Assembly (NCBI RefSeq): GCF_000719475.1
Contig: NZ_JOGO01000028.1
Coordinates: 9,342-73,341, forward strand
DNA from: Streptomyces sp. NRRL F-5630
GTDB taxonomy: Bacteria > Actinomycetota > Actinomycetes > Streptomycetales > Streptomycetaceae
Direction of reading: 5' to 3'
Length of the DNA stretch: 64,000 nucleotides
The notes under the pieces: generated by a model
Told to the model about the DNA's origin: nothing
Seen by the model: only the letters and a program-made list of their open reading frames with translations
Database searches by the model: none
Program-made: the position numbers and the translations under genes
Shown: positions 4,000 to 14,835 of the stretch, piece by piece
Numbering within the stretch: the stretch's first letter is position 1
Layout of the letters: each line of letters starts with the position of its first letter

Positions 4000-4830
4000 T
4001 CAGGCTGAGGCCGCCTGCCGGAGCGAGGCGACCAGCGCGCGCTCGAAGCGCGTACGCGTCTCCGCGTCGAGCAGCCCGAGCGACAGGTACGGGTTGTGGT
4101 CCTCCAGCTCGACGAGCAGCAGTTGCCCCTCCCGTGTGCGGCACGCGTCCACGCGCTGGATGCCGTACGGCAGGGCGTTCCACTCGACGAAGCGGCGCGC
4201 GACGGCGAGATCCGCCGCGCTCGGGCGGTAGGGGGCCAGCTCCCAGCGGCGCGCGGGGTCCGAGGCGTACAACGCGTACTGGAACACCCCGTCCACGAAG
4301 GTGAAGGAGACCTCGTACCGGAACGGGACGTACGGCTGGACGAGCGTGCGCGGGTCGGGGGTGCGGGCGGCGAGCGCGGCCGGGTCGAGGTGCGCCAGGC
4401 CCACCGAGTCCGCGCCGTCGACCGGCTTGACGACGTAGGAGCCGGACGCGGGCAGGTCGCCGGGGGCCGTGTCGCCCGCGTACGTCGGGATGACGGGCAG
4501 GCCCGCGCGCGTCAGTCCGACGAGGTATCCCTTGCCCGCCATGTCGGCGCGGCCCGTGAGCGGGTTGTGGACGGGGATGCCGCGCCGCAGCGCCTCGGCG
4601 CGGAACTCCGCGTAGGCGGCGCGGTAATGGAGGACGGGGCCGCTGTTGCGGACGAGCACGGCGTCGAAGCCGTCCATGAGGCGGGCGGCGTCGCGCGGGT
4701 CGCACAGGGCGAGCGGGAAGTCGGCGCGCAGGCGGGCCGACAGCTCCAGGTCCTCGTCGGCGTAGCGGCGTCCCGCCGCCCGGTAGGCGAGGTCGGTCAC
4801 GTAGAGCAGTCGCGGCGGGCGCCGGGCCAT
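4000..4830 (-). CDS. ATP-grasp-like protein of unknown substrate
   Basis: A 276-residue cytoplasmic protein laid out like a small ATP-grasp ligase. Residues 1-100 form a Rossmann-like pre-domain (LLYVTDLAYRAAG, then DAVLVRNSG). ADMAGKGYLVGLTRAGLPVIPTY fits the start of the ATP-binding domain, SYVVKPVDGADSVGL holds the Lys that would contact ATP, and VELEDHNPYLSLG near the end is close to the metal-binding E-x-N segment of ATP-grasp enzymes. I infer carboxylate-amine or thiol ligation with ATP but cannot name the substrate. It lies 6 bp downstream of a small membrane protein gene and is probably co-transcribed with it. A GAGGAC sequence lies upstream of the ATG at 4830. Confidence 0.75.
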   Translation of the reverse strand: MARRPPRLLYVTDLAYRAAGRRYADEDLELSARLRADFPLALCDPRDAARLMDGFDAVLVRNSGPVLHYRAAYAEFRAEALRRGIPVHNPLTGRADMAGKGYLVGLTRAGLPVIPTYAGDTAPGDLPASGSYVVKPVDGADSVGLAHLDPAALAARTPDPRTLVQPYVPFRYEVSFTFVDGVFQYALYASDPARRWELAPYRPSAADLAVARRFVEWNALPYGIQRVDACRTREGQLLLVELEDHNPYLSLGLLDAETRTRFERALVASLRQAASA

Positions 4831-5387: not shown

Positions 5388-6839
5388 GTGATGGGACAAC
5401 TTCCCTTAGGGGCCGAACAGTTCGAGAACCCCGGGGAGCGGGACCCGGTCGCGGAGTTCGCGCGCGCCTTCGGTGAGTTGCTCGCGGGGCTCGACCCGGG
5501 CGACGGCTGGTGCCAGGTCTTCTGGGCCCGCGATCCCCAGGGGCTGCGGGCCTGCGTGGACGGCACGGAGACGCCGCCGTGGGACGTCGTCGAAGCGCTC
5601 GTCGAGGACCACGTGACGCGCGCGGCGCCGGGGACGGAGCCGCGGCAGGCCGCCGCCGGACTGCGTCCGGCGTATCTGGCCGCCCTCGCCGGACGCGACG
5701 CCCGCCCCGGTGCGGCCGGGGAACTCGCCCGCCGCCTCCCCGGCATGGTGCGCGCACGCGAGCGCGCCGCCAGGCGCGTCACCGACCTCGAACGCGGACT
5801 CGTGGGAGCGGACGGCCCTGCGGCGGCCCACCTGCACGGGCACCTCGCCTGGGCGCGCGACGACCTGTGGCGCGCGGAGGCCCGCTGCGCCGAACTCGCC
5901 GACAGGCTCGCGCGCGTGCGACCGGGGGAGGGGCACGGGGTGCCGGGCGGCCCCGCGCCCGAGTCGCCGCCCACCGGGCGGCGGCCCGCCGGGGCGGACG
6001 CCCCGCGACGCGAGGCACCCTCGTACGGAGGCGCCCCCGATCCCGACCCGGACCCCCCGGAGCCGCGCCCCGCTCCCCGGCGCGAGCCCGCGCCGGGCGG
6101 CACGGCGAAGCCCGTCAAGTCCACGCCCAGGAGCAGGCGTTCGGCTCGTTTCGCCGGTGTGGACGACGCGCTCGTGGGGCCCGGCAGTGTGCTGCCGCCG
6201 CGCGCGGCGCCGCCTGTGGCGGCGGCGGGGACGGGGGAGGCGCCCACGGGGGCGCGGTTCGCCGGGAGCGCGGCGCACGGGGCCCGCGAGGCGGCCGCGC
6301 CGGACGCGGAAGGGATGCGGCGGTCCGGGGAACTCCTCAGCCTGCTGGGTCACGTGCGCGCCGAGGGGCGTGAGGGCGAGGCGCATCTGCTTCTCGTGGA
6401 CGCGGCGCACTGGCCGCCCGCCCACGTGTGCGCGCTCGGCTCCCGCCTGGCCGCCGACGGGCTCGCCGCCGACTGGAGCACCGTGCTGTGGGAGGCCGCC
6501 GCGCTCCCGCTGCCGCCCCTGACCGCGCTCGCGACCGCGCTGGAGGCGGCCGGGCACCGTGCCGACGCAGCGCGCATCCTGCGGCAGGGCGTCGTACGGC
6601 CGCTCCGGGAGGTCGCCGCCGCTCTCGCGGACCCCGCCGTCACCGGCGTGCCGGGCGCGCTCGACCGCCTCGCCGTGTCCTGCGTGACCGCCCGCAGTGC
6701 CGAGGACGTGGCCCGCATCGCCGCCTCCGCGCCCGGCACCCTCACGGCACCCCTCCTCGCGGCTGCCGCCCGCACCTCCGACCTGTGCCACGAGGCACTG
6801 ACGCACGCGCTGAGAGTGGCAGGGGTGGCCGGGGGCTGA
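5388..6839 (+). CDS. Unknown protein with a bldA-type TTA codon
   Basis: A 483-residue soluble protein that I do not recognise. Residues 1-175 are alpha-helical with a charged coiled-coil-like region (RARERAARRVTDLERG...), 180-285 are a low-complexity Pro/Gly/Ala/Arg linker, and 290-483 are Ala/Leu-rich helices that look like degenerate helical repeats (LLSLLGHVRAEGREGEAHLLL). It starts GTG-ATG (5388 or 5391). The sixth codon after the ATG-start Met, at 5406-5408, is TTA, read in Streptomyces by the bldA tRNA, so translation is probably limited to late growth or development. It is flanked by long gene-free regions and seems monocistronic. Confidence 0.75.
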   Translation: MMGQLPLGAEQFENPGERDPVAEFARAFGELLAGLDPGDGWCQVFWARDPQGLRACVDGTETPPWDVVEALVEDHVTRAAPGTEPRQAAAGLRPAYLAALAGRDARPGAAGELARRLPGMVRARERAARRVTDLERGLVGADGPAAAHLHGHLAWARDDLWRAEARCAELADRLARVRPGEGHGVPGGPAPESPPTGRRPAGADAPRREAPSYGGAPDPDPDPPEPRPAPRREPAPGGTAKPVKSTPRSRRSARFAGVDDALVGPGSVLPPRAAPPVAAAGTGEAPTGARFAGSAAHGAREAAAPDAEGMRRSGELLSLLGHVRAEGREGEAHLLLVDAAHWPPAHVCALGSRLAADGLAADWSTVLWEAAALPLPPLTALATALEAAGHRADAARILRQGVVRPLREVAAALADPAVTGVPGALDRLAVSCVTARSAEDVARIAASAPGTLTAPLLAAAARTSDLCHEALTHALRVAGVAGG

Positions 6840-6903
6840 CGGGTGGAGGCGACCCGGCCCGGGCACCGGCCCCCTGCCGCCCCCTGCCCCGCACCTCGTC
6901 CCC

Positions 6904-7000
6904 CGGCCGGGCGCCTCACCCCCGGCCAGGTACCTCGCCCCACGGCTGGGCGCCTCACCCCCGGCCGGGCGCCTCGCCCCCCGGCCAGGCGCCTCCGCAC
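6904..7000. repeat. Short tandem repeat, five units of 19-20 bp
   Basis: Five imperfect head-to-tail copies starting at 6904, 6923, 6943, 6962 and 6982, each close to CGGCCGGGCGCCTCACCCC. They fill the middle of the 333-bp gap (6840-7172) between the unknown gene and the pyrimidine operon. I see no gene in this gap. The repeat may be simple slippage DNA; the operon promoter must lie downstream of it, between about 7000 and 7150. Confidence 0.6.
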
Positions 7001-7172
7001 CGGCCACCCGGCCCTCCGCCCCGTTCCCGCTCACCCGCTGGGGTGGCATCCCTCGTGTCCGGCGACCCGGCGGTCTTGCCCCGCCACCGCCCCGGGCTTA
7101 CGTTCGTGCCTCTACGGCCCGGGGCTCCGGGCGGTAGCGGCTCTCTGACGTCTTGTCGAAGGAGCACTGCTC

Positions 7173-8018
7173 ATGGCTGCCTCCGTCGTCCGCGCCGCAC
7201 TCGTCCAGGCCACCTGGACCGGCGACACCGAATCCATGATCGCCAAGCACGAGGAACACGCCCGTGAGGCCGCCCGGCAGGGCGCGCGGATCATCGGCTT
7301 CCAGGAAGTCTTCAACGCTCCGTACTTCTGCCAGGTGCAGGAGGAGGAGCACTACCGCTGGGCCGAGCCCGTGCCCGACGGGCCGACCGTGCGCCGGATG
7401 CGGGACCTCGCGCGCGAGACCGGCATGGTGATCGTGGTACCGGTCTTCGAGCGCGAGGCCGAGGGCTTCTACTACAACACCGCCGCGGTCATCGACGCCG
7501 ACGGCAGCTACCTCGGCAAGTACCGCAAGCACCACATCCCGCAGCTCAAGGGCTTCTGGGAGAAGTTCTACTTCCGTCCCGGCAACGCGGGCTGGCCGGT
7601 CTTCGACACCGCGGTGGGCCGCGTCGGCGTCTACATCTGCTACGACCGTCACTTCCCCGAGGGCTGGCGCCAACTCGGCCTGAACGGCGCCCAGATCGTC
7701 TACAACCCCTCCGCCACCTCGCGCGGCCTCTCCAGCTACCTGTGGCAGCTCGAACAGCCCGCGGCGGCCGTCGCCAACGAGTACTTCGTCGCCGCGATCA
7801 ACCGCGTCGGCCAGGAGGAGTACGGCGACAACGACTTCTACGGCACGAGCTACTTCGTCGACCCGCGCGGGCAGTTCGTCGGCGAACCCGCGAGCGACAA
7901 GGAGGAGGAACTCGTCGTACGCGACCTGGACCTCGGCCTCATCGACGAAGTGCGCCACCAGTGGGCCTTCTACCGCGACCGCCGCCCCGACGCCTACGAG
8001 GGACTGACCCGCCCGTGA
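7173..8018 (+). CDS. Beta-ureidopropionase-like carbon-nitrogen hydrolase
   Basis: A 281-residue nitrilase-superfamily amidohydrolase. The catalytic triad is visible: Glu45 in GFQEVFNAP, Lys119 in YRKHHIP and Cys156 in YICYDRHFPEG. The expected reaction is hydrolysis of N-carbamoyl-beta-alanine (or the methyl homologue) to beta-alanine, carbon dioxide and ammonia, the last ring-opening step of reductive pyrimidine catabolism. This specificity is inferred mainly from the operon: the stop overlaps the start of an aminotransferase by 4 bp (GTGA), and a dihydropyrimidinase follows. GAAGGAG precedes the ATG by eight bases. N-carbamoyl-D-amino acid hydrolase is the main alternative. Confidence 0.88.
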   Translation: MAASVVRAALVQATWTGDTESMIAKHEEHAREAARQGARIIGFQEVFNAPYFCQVQEEEHYRWAEPVPDGPTVRRMRDLARETGMVIVVPVFEREAEGFYYNTAAVIDADGSYLGKYRKHHIPQLKGFWEKFYFRPGNAGWPVFDTAVGRVGVYICYDRHFPEGWRQLGLNGAQIVYNPSATSRGLSSYLWQLEQPAAAVANEYFVAAINRVGQEEYGDNDFYGTSYFVDPRGQFVGEPASDKEEELVVRDLDLGLIDEVRHQWAFYRDRRPDAYEGLTRP

Positions 8019-9301
8019 GCGACCTCCTGGCGCGGCACCGCGCCGTACTCCCCGACTGGCTCGCCCTCTACTACGACGAACCCATCGAGCTCACCCACGG
8101 CGAGGGCCGCCACGTGTGGGACGCCGAGGGCCGCCGCTACCTCGACTTCTTCGGCGGCATCCTCACCACCATGACCGCGCACGCCCTCCCCGAGGTGACC
8201 AAGGCGGTCAGCGAGCAGGCCGCCCGGCTCGTCCACTCCTCGACGCTCTACCTCAACCGCCCGATGGTCGACCTCGCCGAGCGGATCGCGCACCTCTCCG
8301 GCATCCCCGACGCGCGCGTCTTCTTCACCACGTCGGGCACCGAGGCCAACGACACCGCGCTGCTCCTCGCGACCGCGTACCGCCGCTCCAACCAGATCAT
8401 CGCGATGCGCAACAGCTACCACGGCCGCTCCTTCTCGGCGGTCGGGATCACGGGCAACAGCGGCTGGTCCCCGACGAGTTACTCACCGCTCCAGACTCTG
8501 TGGGCACACGGGGCCGTCCGCGGGCGCGGCCCGTTCGCGCACCTGGACGACCGCGAGTTCACCGAGGCGAGCGTCGCCGACCTGCGCGACCTGCTCGGCC
8601 AGGCACGCGGTCAGGTGGCGGCGCTGATCGCCGAACCGGTGCAGGGCGTCGGCGGGTTCACCTCGCCGCCCGACGGGCTCTACGCCGCGTTCCGTGAAGT
8701 CCTCGCCGAGCGCGGCATCCTGTGGATCGCCGACGAGGTGCAGACCGGCTGGGGGCGCACGGGCGACCACTTCTGGGGCTGGCAGGCCCACGACGGGGCC
8801 GGGCCGCCGGACCTGCTCACCTTCGCCAAGGGCATCGGCAACGGCATGTCCATCGGCGGCGTCGTCGCACGTGCCGAGATCATGAACGTCATCGACACCA
8901 ACTCGCTCTCCACCTTCGGCGGTTCACCCATCACGATGGCCGCGGGGCTCGCCAACCTCACGTACCTCCTGGAGCACGACCTCCAGGGCAACGCGCGCCG
9001 CGTCGGCGGGCTGCTGCGCGAGCGGCTGCGGGCGGGGACGGCCGGCATGGCGCACGTGCGGGAGGTGCGCGGGCGCGGGCTCATGCTCGGCGTCGAACTC
9101 GTCGCGCCCGGCACGGACCGCGCCGACCCGGCACGCGCGGGCGCCGTCCTGGAGGCCGCGCGCGCCGCCGGCCTCCTCATCGGAAAGGGCGGCGGCCACG
9201 ACACGAGCGTGCTGCGCGTCGCGCCGCCGCTGAGCCTGACCGTCGCGGAGGCCGAGGAGGGCGGCGACCTCCTCCTGTCGGCCCTGCGCGCGACGGCCTG
9301 A
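8015..9301 (+). CDS. Class III (omega) aminotransferase, probably for beta-alanine
   Basis: A 428-residue PLP enzyme starting at GTG 8015, overlapping the previous stop by 4 bp. It has the class III features: FTTSGTEANDTA (cofactor phosphate binding), DEVQTGWGRTG with the Asp that contacts the pyridine nitrogen, and Lys272 in LLTFAKGIGNG forming the Schiff base. Following a beta-ureidopropionase, it most likely transfers the amino group of beta-alanine or beta-aminoisobutyrate to an oxo-acid, giving malonate semialdehyde. Related AGXT2-like or GABA aminotransferases are alternatives that the sequence alone cannot exclude. Confidence 0.88.
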   Translation: MSDLLARHRAVLPDWLALYYDEPIELTHGEGRHVWDAEGRRYLDFFGGILTTMTAHALPEVTKAVSEQAARLVHSSTLYLNRPMVDLAERIAHLSGIPDARVFFTTSGTEANDTALLLATAYRRSNQIIAMRNSYHGRSFSAVGITGNSGWSPTSYSPLQTLWAHGAVRGRGPFAHLDDREFTEASVADLRDLLGQARGQVAALIAEPVQGVGGFTSPPDGLYAAFREVLAERGILWIADEVQTGWGRTGDHFWGWQAHDGAGPPDLLTFAKGIGNGMSIGGVVARAEIMNVIDTNSLSTFGGSPITMAAGLANLTYLLEHDLQGNARRVGGLLRERLRAGTAGMAHVREVRGRGLMLGVELVAPGTDRADPARAGAVLEAARAAGLLIGKGGGHDTSVLRVAPPLSLTVAEAEEGGDLLLSALRATA

Positions 9302-9423
9302 GCGGTCAGGAGCGGGCGCCACGGATTCGGGCCCCGCACCCGTGGCGCGAGCCCCCGTGGCACCCGCCCCGCAGCCGCACGAGAGCCGCCCGCCCCACCC
9401 GAGCCCGAGGAGAAGGAGCCCCC

Positions 9424-10830
9424 ATGAGCAACCGCACCCTGATCCGCGGCGGACTCGTCGTCACCGCCGCCGAGGAGACCCACGCCGACGTGCTCGTCGA
9501 GGACGGGCGGGTCGCCGCCCTCGCCACCACAGGCTCCGCCGCCGCCGAGGCGTGGACGGCGGAGCGGGTCGTCGACGCGCGCGGCACGTACGTGATCCCC
9601 GGCGGTGTCGACGGGCACACGCACATGGAGATGCCCTTCGGCGGTACGTACGCGTCCGACACCTTCGAGACCGGTACCCGGGCCGCGGCCTGGGGCGGCA
9701 CCACGACGATCGTCGACTTCGTCGTGCAGAGCGTCGGCCACGGACTGCGCGAGGGCCTCGACGCCTGGCACGCGAAGGCCGAGGGCAACTGCGCGATCGA
9801 CTACGGCTTCCACATGATCCTCGCCGACGTCAATGAGGACACCCTGAAGGAGATGGACCTCCTCGTCGGCGAGGGCGTCACGAGCTTCAAGCTCTTCATG
9901 GCCTATCCCGGCGTCTTCTACTCCGACGACGGCCGCATCCTGCGCGCGATGCAGCGCGCGGGCGAGAACGGCGGCCTCACGATGGTGCACGCCGAGAACG
10001 GCATCGCCATCGACGTCCTCGTCGAACAGGCCCTCGCGGCGGGCCGTACCGACCCGCGCCACCACGGCGAGGTCCGCAAGGCCCTCCTGGAGGCCGAGGC
10101 CACCCACCGCGCGATCCAGCTCGCGCGCGTCGCGGGCGACGTCCCGCTGTACATCGTGCACGTCTCGGCGCAGGAGGCACTCGCGGAGATCGCCGCCGCG
10201 CGCGACACGGGCCTGCCCGTCTACGGCGAGACGTGTCCGCAGTACCTCTTCCTTTCCACCGACAACCTCGCCGAACCGGACTTCGAGGGCGCCAAGTACG
10301 TGTGCTCGACGCCGCTGCGCCCCCGGGAGCACCAGGCGGCACTGTGGCGCGGGCTGCGGACCGACGACCTCCAGGTCGTCTCGACCGATCACTGTCCCTT
10401 CTGCTTCAGTGGCCAGAAGGAGCTGGGCCGGGGCGACTTCTCGAAGATCCCCAACGGGATGCCCGGCGTCGAGCACCGCATGGACCTCCTCCACCAGGCC
10501 GTCGTGGAGGGCCACATCTCCCGCCGCCGCTGGATCGACCTCGCCTGCGCCGCGCCCGCCCGCATGTTCGGCCTCTACCCGAGGAAAGGCACGATCGCCC
10601 CCGGCGCGGACGCGGACATCGTGATCTACGACCCGCACGCGGAACAGGTCCTCTCGGCCGCCACCCACCACATGAACGTCGACTACTCGGCCTACGAGGG
10701 CAAGCGCGTCACGGGCCGGGTCCGCACGGTCCTCTCGCGCGGCGTCCCGGTCCTGGAGGACAGGGAGTACGTGGGCCGCGCGGGCCACGGCGTGTACGTG
10801 CCGAGGGGACTGAGCACGTACAGGAGCTGA
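9424..10830 (+). CDS. hydA: Dihydropyrimidinase / hydantoinase
   Basis: A 468-residue amidohydrolase that opens the ring of 5,6-dihydrouracil and dihydrothymine (or 5-substituted hydantoins). The metal centre is recognisable: HTHMEMP (two His), Lys156 in SFKLFMAYPG (carboxylated bridging Lys), His in IVHVSAQ, and Asp322 in STDHCPF. An excellent AGGAGAAGGAG lies just before the ATG. Its product is the substrate of the amidohydrolase encoded at 7173, so three consecutive steps are in one transcription unit. The gap of 122 bp before it holds no gene. Confidence 0.93.
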   Translation: MSNRTLIRGGLVVTAAEETHADVLVEDGRVAALATTGSAAAEAWTAERVVDARGTYVIPGGVDGHTHMEMPFGGTYASDTFETGTRAAAWGGTTTIVDFVVQSVGHGLREGLDAWHAKAEGNCAIDYGFHMILADVNEDTLKEMDLLVGEGVTSFKLFMAYPGVFYSDDGRILRAMQRAGENGGLTMVHAENGIAIDVLVEQALAAGRTDPRHHGEVRKALLEAEATHRAIQLARVAGDVPLYIVHVSAQEALAEIAAARDTGLPVYGETCPQYLFLSTDNLAEPDFEGAKYVCSTPLRPREHQAALWRGLRTDDLQVVSTDHCPFCFSGQKELGRGDFSKIPNGMPGVEHRMDLLHQAVVEGHISRRRWIDLACAAPARMFGLYPRKGTIAPGADADIVIYDPHAEQVLSAATHHMNVDYSAYEGKRVTGRVRTVLSRGVPVLEDREYVGRAGHGVYVPRGLSTYRS

Positions 10831-10998
10831 CCGGCACGCGGTACGGCGGCGGGGGCGGGGCGCACGGGCGGGGCGCGGGACCACCGGTGCCTGATCGGTC
10901 CCCTTCGCGCGGTATCGCCTGACACCCTCACGCACACCGTCGTCCGCGGCCCGGCGGTACGACGGCCCCCAGGAGCCCCGAACACAGGAGCACTCGCC

Positions 10999-12000
10999 AT
11001 GGACTTCGGACTCGTCCTCCAGACCGACCCCCCGGCCTCCACCGTCGTCGGCCTCATGCGCCGCGCCGAGCAGCAGGGCTTCACCCACGGCTGGACCTTC
11101 GACTCCGCCGTCCTGTGGCAGGAGCCCTTCGTCATCCACAGCCAGATCCTGGAGCACACCGAACGGCTCGTCGTCGGCCCGATGGTGACCAACCCGGGGA
11201 CCCGTACGTGGGAGGTCACCGCCTCGACCTTCGCGACGCTCAACGACATGTTCGGCAACCGCACCGTGTGCGGCATCGGGCGCGGCGACTCCGCGATGCG
11301 CGTCGCGGGCCGCCCGCCGAACACCCTCGCCCGCCTCGGCGAGGCCATCGACACCATCCGCGATCTCGCCGAGGGTCGCGGCGCGCGGCTCGGCGACACC
11401 GAGGTGCGGCTGCCGTGGGTGCGGGAGGGGCGGCTGCCGGTGTGGGCCGCCGCGTACGGGCCGAAGGCGCTCGCCCTCACCGGGGCGCGCGCCGACGGCT
11501 TCATCCTCCAGCTCGCCGACCCCTACCTGACCGCCGCGATGGTCGAACAGGTCCGCACCGCCGCCTCCGACGCGGGCCGCGACCCCGCCTCCGTCACGAT
11601 CTGCGTCGCCGCCCCCGCCTACGTGAGCGAGGACCTGGCCCACGCGCGCGAGCAGTGCCGCTGGTTCGGTGGCATGGTCGGCAACCACGTCGCCGATCTC
11701 GTCGCCCGCTACGGCAGCGAATCCGCCTCCGTACCGCCCGAGCTGACCGCGTACATCGCCGACCGCGAGGACTACGACTACAGCCACCACGGCCGCGTGG
11801 GCAACAGCTCGACCGACTTCGTGCCCGACGAGATCGTGGACCGCTTCTGCGTCCTCGGCCCCGTCGAGGCGCACATCGAGAAGCTGCGCGAACTCCGCGC
11901 CGTCGGCGTCGACCAGTTCGCCGTCTACGCGATGCACGACGCGCGCGAAGAACTCATCGACGTGTACGGGAAGGAAGTCATCCCCGTCCTCAACTCCTAG
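10999..12000 (+). CDS. Mer-like LLM-class flavin/F420-dependent oxidoreductase
   Basis: A 333-residue luciferase-like TIM-barrel oxidoreductase. The N-terminus MDFGLVLQTDPPAS, GPMVTNPGTR (the strand-3 segment with the non-prolyl cis peptide of the F420 branch) and GIGRGDSAMR are typical of the group close to methylenetetrahydromethanopterin reductase. Such proteins use F420 or FMN for hydride transfer; the substrate is not known. The gene sits between dihydropyrimidinase and an NCS1 transporter, so a role in pyrimidine ring reduction or modification is likely. No PreA/PreT-type dihydropyrimidine dehydrogenase is present nearby. An ACAGGAGCACTCGCC leader sequence precedes the ATG. Confidence 0.85.
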   Translation: MDFGLVLQTDPPASTVVGLMRRAEQQGFTHGWTFDSAVLWQEPFVIHSQILEHTERLVVGPMVTNPGTRTWEVTASTFATLNDMFGNRTVCGIGRGDSAMRVAGRPPNTLARLGEAIDTIRDLAEGRGARLGDTEVRLPWVREGRLPVWAAAYGPKALALTGARADGFILQLADPYLTAAMVEQVRTAASDAGRDPASVTICVAAPAYVSEDLAHAREQCRWFGGMVGNHVADLVARYGSESASVPPELTAYIADREDYDYSHHGRVGNSSTDFVPDEIVDRFCVLGPVEAHIEKLRELRAVGVDQFAVYAMHDAREELIDVYGKEVIPVLNS

Positions 12001-12172
12001 AGTCGGCAGACCTTTCCCCCGCCCGGCGCGCCCCCGCCCCACGCGACGGGGCACGTCCCGCCGGAAGCGCGGCACGTCCGCGCGCCCTTTTACCCCGCAC
12101 CCGCACGGCACCCCACGGCACCCGAGCACGGCACCGCATCCTCCCGCACCGTTCTCCCCGAAGGGTCCCGCC

Positions 12173-13750
12173 ATGACTGACGCCCTCGCCACCCCGCCCG
12201 GCACCCCGCCGGGCCCACCGCGCCCCTCCCACGCGGCCACCGCTCCGGGGCAGCACCTCACCCCCGACGGCCGCGTCGAACTCGACCCGGGCGCCTTCCC
12301 CGCCGACTCGCCGCACGCCAACGAGGATCTGCGCCCGATCCCCGTCGCCCACCGCCACTGGGGCACCTACAACTTCACGGCCCTGTGGATCGGGATGGCG
12401 CACAACATCCCCTCCTGGACGCTCGCTTCGGGCCTCGTGGCGCTCGGCATGGACTGGAAGCAGGCCGTCCTCACCATCGCCCTCGCCAATGTCGTCGTCC
12501 TGCTCCCCATGCTCCTGACCGGGCACGCGGGACCCAAGTACGGCATCCCCTTCCCCGTCCTCGCGCGCGCCTCCTTCGGGCTGCGCGGCGCGAACCTGCC
12601 CGCTCTCCTTCGCGCGGCCGTGGCCTGCGGCTGGTTCGGCATCCAGACGTGGATCGGCGGACAGGGCGTCTTCGTCCTACTCGACAAGCTGCTGCCGGGC
12701 TCCTGGGCGCACGCCTCGCGCCTCGGCGGGCAGCCGTGGCCGCTGTGGGTGTGTTTCGGGATCTTCTGGCTGCTGCAACTCCTCATCATCCACCGGGGAA
12801 TGGAGACCCTGCGGCGCTTCGAGAACTGGGCCGGGCCCTTTGTGTTCCTCGGCGCGCTCGCGCTGCTCGCGTGGATGGCGGACGAGGCGGGCGGCTTCGG
12901 CCCGCTGCTCGACCAGCCCTCGGAGCTCGGCTGGGGCGGCGACTTCTGGCCCGTGTTCTTCCCCGCGCTCATGGGGATGATCGGCTTCTGGTCCACGCTC
13001 TCGCTGAACATCCCCGACTTCACGCGCTTCGGCAGGGGCCAACGCGCCCAGGTCTGGGGCCAGTCGCTCGGCCTGCCCACCACGATGACGGCCTTCGCGC
13101 TCCTCTCCGTGCTCGTCACCTCGGGCTCCCAGGCGGTCTACGGCGAACCCGTGTGGGAGCCGGTCGACCTGGCGGCCCGCGCGGACAACGCCTTCGGTCT
13201 GCTCTTCGCGCTGATCACGGTCCTCGTCGCGACGATCTCGGCGAACCTCGCGGCGAACGTCGTCTCGCCCGCGTACGACCTCGCCAACCTCGCCCCCCGC
13301 TTCATCAGCTTCCGCACCGGGGCGCTCATCACCGGTGTGGTGGGCGTGCTGATCATGCCGTGGAAGCTCATCGCGACGCCGGAGCTGTACATCTACACGT
13401 GGCTCGGGGTGGTCGGCGGGCTGCTCGGCACGGTCGCGGGCATCCTCATCGCCGACTACTGGCTCGTCCGGGGCACCTCGCTGCACCTCGCGGAGCTGTA
13501 CCGCAGGGAGGGCCGCTACTGGTACCGCCGCGGCTGGCACCCGGCGGCGGTCCTCGCCTTCCTCGCCGGTGGCGTCCTCGCGGTCGGCGGCTCCCACTCC
13601 GCGCCCGGCAAGGGCCCCTTCCCGGAGGACGGCCTCATCCCCCTCCTCAAGCCGCTCGCCGACTACGGCTGGGCGATCGGCTTCGCCTCGTCACTCCTCG
13701 TGTACGTGATCCTCGCGGGACGCTCGGGGAGGCGGGCGGAGCGGGAGTGA
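12173..13750 (+). CDS. NCS1-family nucleobase/hydantoin transporter
   Basis: A 525-residue integral membrane protein with about 12 hydrophobic segments. The start of the first helix (YNFTALWIGMAHNIPSW) and the following loop with GPKYGIPFPVLARASFG are the NCS1 signatures. The family imports uracil, cytosine, allantoin or hydantoins with Na+ or H+. Placed last in the operon with dihydropyrimidinase, it probably imports uracil/thymine or the corresponding dihydropyrimidines or hydantoins. GAAGGG precedes the ATG by seven bases. The preceding 172-bp gap holds no gene. Confidence 0.9.
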   Translation: MTDALATPPGTPPGPPRPSHAATAPGQHLTPDGRVELDPGAFPADSPHANEDLRPIPVAHRHWGTYNFTALWIGMAHNIPSWTLASGLVALGMDWKQAVLTIALANVVVLLPMLLTGHAGPKYGIPFPVLARASFGLRGANLPALLRAAVACGWFGIQTWIGGQGVFVLLDKLLPGSWAHASRLGGQPWPLWVCFGIFWLLQLLIIHRGMETLRRFENWAGPFVFLGALALLAWMADEAGGFGPLLDQPSELGWGGDFWPVFFPALMGMIGFWSTLSLNIPDFTRFGRGQRAQVWGQSLGLPTTMTAFALLSVLVTSGSQAVYGEPVWEPVDLAARADNAFGLLFALITVLVATISANLAANVVSPAYDLANLAPRFISFRTGALITGVVGVLIMPWKLIATPELYIYTWLGVVGGLLGTVAGILIADYWLVRGTSLHLAELYRREGRYWYRRGWHPAAVLAFLAGGVLAVGGSHSAPGKGPFPEDGLIPLLKPLADYGWAIGFASSLLVYVILAGRSGRRAERE

Positions 13751-13980
13751 GGGCCGGGGAGGGGCGCGGAAGCCGCGGGGCGCCGTACGGGGCCCGCCGC
13801 CACCGCGCGGCCCGTGGCACCCCCGAGTACCCTCCCACCCGTCCCCAGCTGCGGTTTCCGCCCCCCGCGGTTAGCGTGGGCTGAGGGCTGGGCCCTCCCG
13901 GCCGGCCGGTCCCGAGCCGGAAGGACGTGTGACATGCGAACGCCCCGTACCGGAACCCGTACCGCCGCCGGAGCCGCGCG

Positions 13981-14835
13981 GTGACCGCCGCCGCGCACGG
14001 GCTCGCTCCCGTCATGACCGGCATCGCGGCCATGGTCTTCGACGTCGACGGGGTCCTCACCGACTCCGCGCGCGTCCACGCCGAGGCGTGGAAGGAGGCG
14101 TTCGACGCCTGCCTGCGCGCGCATCCCCCCGCCGACAAGGCGCTGGACAGGCCCTTCGACGCCGCCGACGACTACCTGCGCTACGTCGACGGCAAGCCCA
14201 GAGCCGACGGCGCCGCCGCCTTCCTGCACTCCCGGCGGGTGCCGATCCCGGACGGCAGCCCCTCCGACGCCCCCGGCACGGACTCGGTCGCCGCCGTCGC
14301 CGCGCTCAAGGACGGCATGTTCACGCGCCGCGTCCGCGAGAACGGCATCGAACCCTTCCCGGGCTCCGTCCGGCTCCTGAAGGCCCTGCGCGCCGCCGGT
14401 GTCCCCATGGCCGCCGCCTCCTCCTCGCACCACGCCCGCGACGTCCTCGCGGGGGCCGGACTCCTCGACTACTTCGTCAGCCTCGTCGACGGCGACGAGT
14501 CCCACCGCCTCGGCCTGCCCGGCAAACCCGACCCCGCGCTCTTCCTGGAGGCCGCGAACCGTCTCGGCACCGAGCCCGCGCACGCCGCCGTCGCCGAGGA
14601 CGCCCTCGCGGGGGTCGAGGCGGGGCGGCGCGGCGGCTTCGGCCTCGTCATCGGCGTCGACCGGGCCCACACCACCGACACCGCCAGGAGCCTGCGGGAG
14701 CACGGCGCCGACCTCGTCGTCGACGACCTCGCCCACCTCCTGCGCGCACCGGGCACCGACGACCGCCCACCCGGGAAGGACGACCGCGCGTCCGGGGCCC
14801 ACGGCGGTGCGTCCGGCACCGACGGCAAGGAGTGA
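13981..14835 (+). CDS. HAD hydrolase, beta-phosphoglucomutase-like
   Basis: A 284-residue HAD protein. The nucleophile and acid/base are in FDVDGVLTDSARVH (D-x-D), the Ser/Thr loop in AAASSSHH, the Lys in LPGKPDPALF and the second acid cluster in AVAEDALAGVEA. The cap domain lies between. This subfamily interconverts beta-glucose-1-phosphate and glucose-6-phosphate, which fits the GH65 phosphorylase encoded 4 bp downstream. The GTG at 13981 is chosen because GGAG lies seven bases upstream; an ATG at 14014 is possible. The tail after residue 255 is a Pro/Gly/Asp-rich extension with no family counterpart I know. Confidence 0.87.
   Translation: MTAAAHGLAPVMTGIAAMVFDVDGVLTDSARVHAEAWKEAFDACLRAHPPADKALDRPFDAADDYLRYVDGKPRADGAAAFLHSRRVPIPDGSPSDAPGTDSVAAVAALKDGMFTRRVRENGIEPFPGSVRLLKALRAAGVPMAAASSSHHARDVLAGAGLLDYFVSLVDGDESHRLGLPGKPDPALFLEAANRLGTEPAHAAVAEDALAGVEAGRRGGFGLVIGVDRAHTTDTARSLREHGADLVVDDLAHLLRAPGTDDRPPGKDDRASGAHGGASGTDGKE

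Follow-up and report, generated by a model that had tools for sequence, protein, structure and literature searches.

For the ring-reducing first step of the reductive pyrimidine degradation (Pyd) pathway, the enzymes described are PydA, which works with flavin mononucleotide (FMN), iron-sulfur clusters and NADPH, PreAT, which works with NADH, and the clostridial PydAc, which works with ferredoxin (excerpt of PMC7332683). An F420-dependent, luciferase-family yanthine reductase of Chloroflexota was proposed from gene neighbourhoods in 2025 (excerpt of PMC12507026), and NpsU / SSGG-03002 (napsamycin, mureidomycin), a putative F420/FMN oxidoreductase, was reported in 2023, on the basis of genetics and nuclear magnetic resonance, to reduce the uracil C5-C6 bond (excerpt of PMC10714638). 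No description of an F420-dependent uracil reductase for the first Pyd step was found in the open-licence PubMed Central literature. Here, we describe a gene cluster in a stretch of 64,000 nucleotides from Streptomyces sp. NRRL F-5630 (contig NZ_JOGO01000028.1, positions 9,342 to 73,341; hereafter the window). Judged from sequence and modelled structure, it is likely to be a reductive pyrimidine-degradation operon in which an F420H2-dependent oxidoreductase of the luciferase-like monooxygenase (LLM) class, TIGR03842, takes the place of PydA, PreAT or DPYD as the first enzyme.

The sequence-only reading of this DNA had placed a dihydropyrimidinase, a ureidopropionase-like hydrolase, an aminotransferase and an NCS1 transporter around an LLM oxidoreductase, and all five genes were recovered at 7173-13750. 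Dihydropyrimidinase, N-carbamoyl hydrolase and aminotransferase are thereby present together by family (TIGR02033, PF00795 and PF00202).

7173..8018, plus strand: carbon-nitrogen (CN) hydrolase (PF00795, 246.8 bits), proposed N-carbamoyl-beta-amino acid hydrolase (beta-ureidopropionase step)
8015..9301, plus strand: class-III aminotransferase (PF00202, 280.4 bits), proposed beta-alanine/beta-aminoisobutyrate transaminase
9424..10830, plus strand: dihydropyrimidinase / D-hydantoinase, ring opening (TIGR02033, 566.9 bits, cut-off 393.25)
10999..12000, plus strand: LLM oxidoreductase (TIGR03842, 574.2 bits, curated cut-off 295.45), proposed F420H2-dependent uracil/thymine reductase
12173..13750, plus strand: NCS1 nucleobase/hydantoin permease (TIGR00800, 442.7 bits, cut-off 353.1), proposed substrate importer

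The oxidoreductase and its host genome

The window LLM spans positions 1-329 of the 329 positions of TIGR03842 (F420_CPS_4043, a hypothetical equivalog in NCBIfam), and its closest named homologues are Streptomyces proteins. It belongs to PF00296 and carries no DHO_dh (PF01180) domain, which places it outside the PydA/PreA/DPYD family. Its predicted structure (predicted local distance difference test score 90.9) was compared with solved folds, and the 15 best aligned were all F420 enzymes. We infer an F420-dependent LLM oxidoreductase that would bind F420 and transfer hydride from it. The label "Mer-like" given to the protein in the sequence-only reading had to be given up: it scored 107.6 and 120.1 bits against the Mer models, under their cut-offs of 348.7 and 276, and all 60 of the 60 compared members had Val, Thr or Cys instead of Glu at position 6. 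Glu6 of Mer is named through an E6Q mutant entry among the solved structures, and we take this residue to be catalytic.

Routes of uracil use considered in the genome were PreA/DPYD and RutA. Both PreA and DPYD need a DHO_dh domain. A search of the 7.06 Mb genome (237 contigs, estimated 100% complete) for this domain gave one match only, the quinone-dependent PyrD (NF003648, 559.7 bits, cut-off 433), and the PreA model reached at best 45.4 bits, at the place of PyrD (cut-off 335). Because its only DHO_dh-domain protein is PyrD, the genome is without PreA and DPYD, and any uracil reduction in the strain would not be the work of a known PydA-type enzyme. The absence of these enzymes, proposed earlier for the cluster, thus holds genome-wide for PreA and DPYD, PreT not having been searched separately.

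RutA offers a different model for the window LLM, namely an enzyme dependent on FMN, together with oxygen or NAD(P)H, rather than on F420: it is a member of the same superfamily and acts on uracil. Yet the best place in the genome for the RutA model (TIGR03612, cut-off 498.3 bits) scored 75.3 bits, the window LLM was not among the 13 matches, and its fold lies closest to F420 enzymes. Moreover, the product of RutA would need no dihydropyrimidinase.

Association with dihydropyrimidinase and F420 genes

Among 296 genomes drawn evenly across the Actinomycetota, 62 carried TIGR03842 and 87 dihydropyrimidinase (TIGR02033) over cut-off, and 59 genomes had both (Fisher p 1.4e-36, not corrected for kinship). 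The three TIGR03842 genomes without dihydropyrimidinase were G149, G216 and G234, with estimated completeness of 87%, 100% and 67%. The two genes lay within 10 kb of each other in 47 of the 62 genomes (on opposite strands in G175 and G111, on one strand in all others) and farther apart on one contig in three (G031, G045 and G237). In the remaining 12, G149, G216 and G234 included, the contig with the LLM had no dihydropyrimidinase over cut-off. Neighbourhoods were fetched for 20 chosen loci of the 62; they contained dihydropyrimidinase in 19, aminotransferase in 14, CN hydrolase in 13, NCS1 in eight and a Zn-dependent hydrolase in seven. The order seen in the window (hydrolase, aminotransferase, dihydropyrimidinase, LLM, NCS1) was kept in the Streptomyces genomes G107 and G023, so the cluster is not a product of chance. 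Two further genomes of the genus deviated within the stretches seen: G246 had no NCS1 and G171 neither NCS1 nor aminotransferase. A second CN hydrolase gene stands between aminotransferase and dihydropyrimidinase in G023 (at ~6.0 kb of locus L152). The TIGR03842 match falls into two parts, as a frame change would cause, in G225 (C1:2193491-2194476) and G237 (C1:121370-122355), and is in one piece in G268, a congener of G225.

Homologues on alphaproteobacterial plasmids, ~40-43% identical to the window LLM and over the TIGR03842 cut-off, are joined to genes for the proposed cofactor. In Paracoccus and Leisingera, the LLM directly follows cofG-cofH-cofD-cofC-cofE-npdG, which encode F420 biosynthesis and an NADPH:F420 reductase. 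In Leisingera, a divergent operon combines the two transhydrogenase subunits with genes for aminotransferase, Zn-dependent hydrolase, dihydropyrimidinase and NCS1. In Paracoccus denitrificans F420 genes, LLM, NCS1, dihydropyrimidinase and Zn hydrolase stand side by side, and the genome has no PreA over cut-off. The Alphaproteobacteria could not serve as a background sample for the LLM and were dropped as such, since only one of 190 genomes sampled, the one at the centre of the sample, had TIGR03842 over cut-off and co-occurrence was not computable.

A wider scan of named genomes gave at least 592 loci, of which the 80 best were kept, and the sample therefore leans to relatives of the Leisingera protein. 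Hosts included Paracoccus denitrificans, Marinomonas, Halomonas, Marinobacter, Vibrio, Halopseudomonas and Chloroflexota. Within 10 kb of the LLM, three or more F420 genes were present at 43 loci, at least one pyrimidine gene at 53 and at least two at 38, and 64 loci had either a pyrimidine gene or three F420 genes; preA or preT occurred at none. By gene, dihydropyrimidinase was found at 34 loci, Zn hydrolase at 29, aminotransferase at 26, CN hydrolase at 16 and NCS1 at 15, and a ring-opening or carbamoyl hydrolase at 46, in counts that may miss genes on short contigs and include weak aminotransferase matches (25-30% identity) that are perhaps unrelated. For 46 of the 80, whole genomes were searched, and 45 of these contained dihydropyrimidinase over cut-off. 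Of the 36 named genomes with CofH, 19 carry it on the same contig as dihydropyrimidinase and no more than 25 kb away; in the other 17 dihydropyrimidinase was elsewhere or on another contig.

Some F420-linked loci differed in content. Alphaproteobacterial metagenome-assembled genomes (MAGs) carry tandem TIGR03842-like genes beside npdG and cof genes (three copies in L123 from 3733, two in L115:10001-11904). On a plasmid of Variovorax sp. PBL-E5 (L044:4414-14973), amidohydrolase, CN hydrolase, LLM, GTP-binding protein, npdG, RidA and cofGHDCE are found together; the LLM there scores 202.7 bits, below the TIGR03842 cut-off, and the gene content may point to another F420-linked cyclic-amide pathway.

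The neighbourhoods also bear on the step at which the LLM would act. PydE-type reductases reduce the semialdehyde formed by the aminotransferase, and an F420-dependent LLM could likewise act late, for example on malonate or methylmalonate semialdehyde. We consider this quite unlikely. A late-acting LLM would leave the window's genome and 40 of the 46 named genomes without a known pyrimidine reductase. Dihydropyrimidinase without aminotransferase was seen at 15 of the 80 named loci against seven for the reverse, and at five against none of the 20 fetched Actinomycetota loci; the LLM is thus tied slightly more closely to the ring-opening enzyme than to the aminotransferase. For an LLM that reduces the pyrimidine ring, as the sequence-only reading had proposed, the co-occurrence and linkage with dihydropyrimidinase, the F420 genes and the fold all speak. 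The cross-genome comparison suggested with that proposal gave the expected pattern, both in the pairing with dihydropyrimidinase counted above and in PreA, which was absent or below cut-off in each of the 62 Actinomycetota genomes that have TIGR03842 and in 40 of the 46 named ones.

Partner families, parallel clusters and F420 supply

The partner proteins could be placed by family to different degrees. Dihydropyrimidinase matches solved D-hydantoinases and dihydropyrimidinases with E-values down to 3.3e-154 and carries the motifs GHTHM, FKLFMAYPG, VHAEN, YIVHVS, STDHC, CSTPL and PNGMPGV, presumably catalytic. The best NCBIfam model for the CN hydrolase is N-carbamoylputrescine amidase (266.5 bits, under the cut-off of 410.25); among its solved relatives N-carbamoylputrescine amidohydrolase ranks first, followed by CG3027 and beta-ureidopropionases, and its motifs FQEVF, YRKHHIP and ICYDRHFPEG are assumed here to serve catalysis. 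For the class-III aminotransferase, none of the best 25 of 69 NCBIfam families reached its cut-off, and no solved relative was found at E<=1e-60. The closest solved protein to the NCS1 permease is the hydantoin permease Mhp1 (1.3e-38).

Several observations weigh against a pyrimidine-reducing LLM. The CN hydrolase scores nearer to N-carbamoylputrescine amidase than to beta-ureidopropionase, and TIGR02033 covers D-hydantoinase as well, so it does not separate the two ring-opening activities. The ~42.6 kb inspected around the LLM gene of Paracoccus alcaliphilus contain no annotated pyrimidine gene; 16 of the 80 named loci, among them all six from Devosia, show no pyrimidine gene and fewer than three F420 genes within 10 kb; and G339 has TIGR03842 but no TIGR02033 over cut-off. 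The absence of PreA from all 62 Actinomycetota genomes with TIGR03842 is weak evidence because PreA is rare in the phylum (over cut-off in only 2 of 296). Its use as statistical proof was rejected, 0 of 62 being about the chance expectation. PreA over cut-off coexists with TIGR03842 in six of the 46 named genomes, namely two strains of Leisingera sp. (ANG1 and ANG59), Limimaricola, Aquamicrobium, Devosia psychrophila and a Geminicoccaceae MAG. In G318 PreA is matched over its full length at 219 bits, below cut-off; the named-genome search used the PreA model only and could miss low-scoring fused DPYD-type enzymes. Finally, 14 of 80 TIGR03842 genomes analysed for F420 supply (the 46 named and 34 of the 62 Actinomycetota) have no CofH match, so F420 there would have to be salvaged or made otherwise.

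The genomes with both PreA and the LLM provide what we regard as the strongest individual argument that the two serve the same step. Leisingera sp. ANG1 and Limimaricola each have two parallel pyrimidine clusters, one with preT, preA, Zn hydrolase and dihydropyrimidinase, the other with F420 genes, LLM, paralogous Zn hydrolase and dihydropyrimidinase, aminotransferase and NCS1. The LLM module thus occupies the place of PreAT. Leisingera ANG59 has the same PreA cluster plus an F420-LLM operon. For Aquamicrobium, Devosia psychrophila and the Geminicoccaceae MAG, the PreA neighbourhoods retrieved yielded no match to dihydropyrimidinase.

Parallel clusters are also compatible with a different pyrimidine as substrate of the LLM, and the presence of both types in one genome, seen in two genera, could mean that their substrates differ. 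The LLM would then use F420 to reduce some other cyclic ureide, or a modified base, and the cluster would serve that compound instead of uracil or thymine. The hydantoin permease as closest solved transporter and the hydantoinases within TIGR02033 would fit such a role, as would the luciferase-family F420 reductase proposed for 2,8-dioxopurine in Chloroflexota (excerpt of PMC12507026). Against it stand the uracil-type gene set in many clusters and the lack of an annotated xanthine dehydrogenase in the Leisingera regions inspected, elsewhere no search having been made. The breadth of hosts, in addition, suggests a common substrate. Hydantoins, for their part, are ring-opened without prior reduction. 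Overall, we hold another ureide to be unlikely and uracil or thymine to be the better candidates.

Genes for F420 were found wherever the LLM was analysed in this respect. The window's own genome matches the CofH model with 534.9 bits. Across the 80 genomes, CofH was over cut-off in 65 and split between contigs in one (G145); F420 ligase was over cut-off in all 14 genomes without a CofH match, so that CofH or ligase was present in 80 of 80. No ligase match was found in G257, which shares its taxonomic family with two CofH-less genomes and has no TIGR03842 match, and of 14 control genomes only Methanocaldococcus, Methanosarcina and Haloferax gave one. CofH was over cut-off in 28 of the 190 Alphaproteobacteria; a Fisher test of these against the named genomes mixes phyla and selected genomes and was not relied on. 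Devosia-type genomes have no CofH match, but at eight loci from Devosia and its near relatives the LLM has a ligase-type gene no more than 5 kb away. The two of these examined more closely, both from Devosia, place the LLM near F420 ligase and a periplasmic binding protein, with an ABC ATPase domain in one (L104:5112-9924) and a FecCD permease in the other (L096:12100-15089). The ligase and uptake-transporter genes suggest salvage of an F420 precursor, and it is possible that Devosia-type genomes take up such a precursor.

The CofH-less genomes are the second point in favour of an FMN-dependent, RutA-like enzyme. Since all of them have F420 ligase, and F420 operons are attached to the LLM in Proteobacteria, we regard this alternative as highly improbable. 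Of the two cofactors named in the sequence-only reading, F420H2 and FMN, the first is therefore the one backed by gene linkage, by CofH or ligase across the genomes, and by the fold.

Locus surroundings, proposed pathway and known systems

The CN hydrolase and aminotransferase genes overlap by 4 nt, and gaps of 122, 168 and 172 nt follow the aminotransferase, dihydropyrimidinase and LLM genes. The GTG start of the aminotransferase (8015) was chosen because of this overlap, the open frame itself being longer. A scan of 6900-14000 gave no sigma-70-like promoter and three terminator-like sites, every one within the permease gene, with consensus patterns poorly suited to a high-GC genome. The five genes may be co-transcribed. 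A weak match to the D-cycloserine synthetase DcsG (35.4 bits, cut-off 360) lies on the minus strand at 4000-4830 of the window. The cluster is flanked by two open frames:

5388-6839: upstream open frame, no Pfam or NCBIfam match at E 0.001
13981-14835: downstream open frame, HAD-like

In the proposed pathway, NCS1 would import uracil or thymine, and the LLM would pass a hydride from F420H2 to the pyrimidine ring, probably at C6 by analogy with PydA, yielding the 5,6-dihydropyrimidine (dihydrouracil or dihydrothymine). Dihydropyrimidinase would then open the ring, the CN hydrolase would take off the carbamoyl group, and the aminotransferase would remove the beta-amino nitrogen. NpdG in Proteobacteria, together with transhydrogenase in some hosts, would regenerate F420H2. 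Substrate, direction of reaction, cofactor binding and transport are all inferred in this scheme.

On a broader scale, we lean towards the view that the Pyd pathway of Actinomycetota, marine Proteobacteria and Chloroflexota can begin with a non-homologous pyrimidine reductase that draws on a fourth electron donor, F420H2. In many Proteobacteria the entire F420 operon would then travel, also on plasmids, mainly for the LLM, and Devosia-type bacteria would supply it by salvage of F420 precursors. If true, this would give a function to TIGR03842, so far a hypothetical equivalog, and a reason for the F420 biosynthesis operons of many marine Proteobacteria. It would also add a second, unrelated enzyme family for reductive pyrimidine dearomatisation, with F420 as a further electron donor, and could matter for the handling of fluoropyrimidines and nucleic-acid nitrogen by soil and marine bacteria.

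Compared with known systems, the window LLM shares its superfamily and the proposed action on uracil with RutA. It differs from Mer in scoring below the Mer cut-offs, in lacking Glu6 and in its context of pyrimidine catabolism. The proposed yanthine reductase is alike in that an F420-dependent LLM would reduce a purine core ahead of an amidohydrolase, but its substrate is a purine, and the likeness to TIGR03842 is by description only (excerpt of PMC12507026). NpsU / SSGG-03002 is likewise comparable to TIGR03842 by description, as a putative F420/FMN oxidoreductase reported to reduce the C5-C6 bond of uracil; it acts, however, on an antibiotic nucleoside and not in catabolism, and in vitro activity was not obtained (excerpt of PMC10714638). 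The closest likeness in gene logic is to the Pyd pathway itself, with dihydropyrimidinase, N-carbamoyl hydrolase, aminotransferase and NCS1, and with ring reduction as what would be the first step. The difference lies in the enzyme proposed for that step, which in the window has an LLM fold, is linked to F420 and carries no DHO_dh domain.

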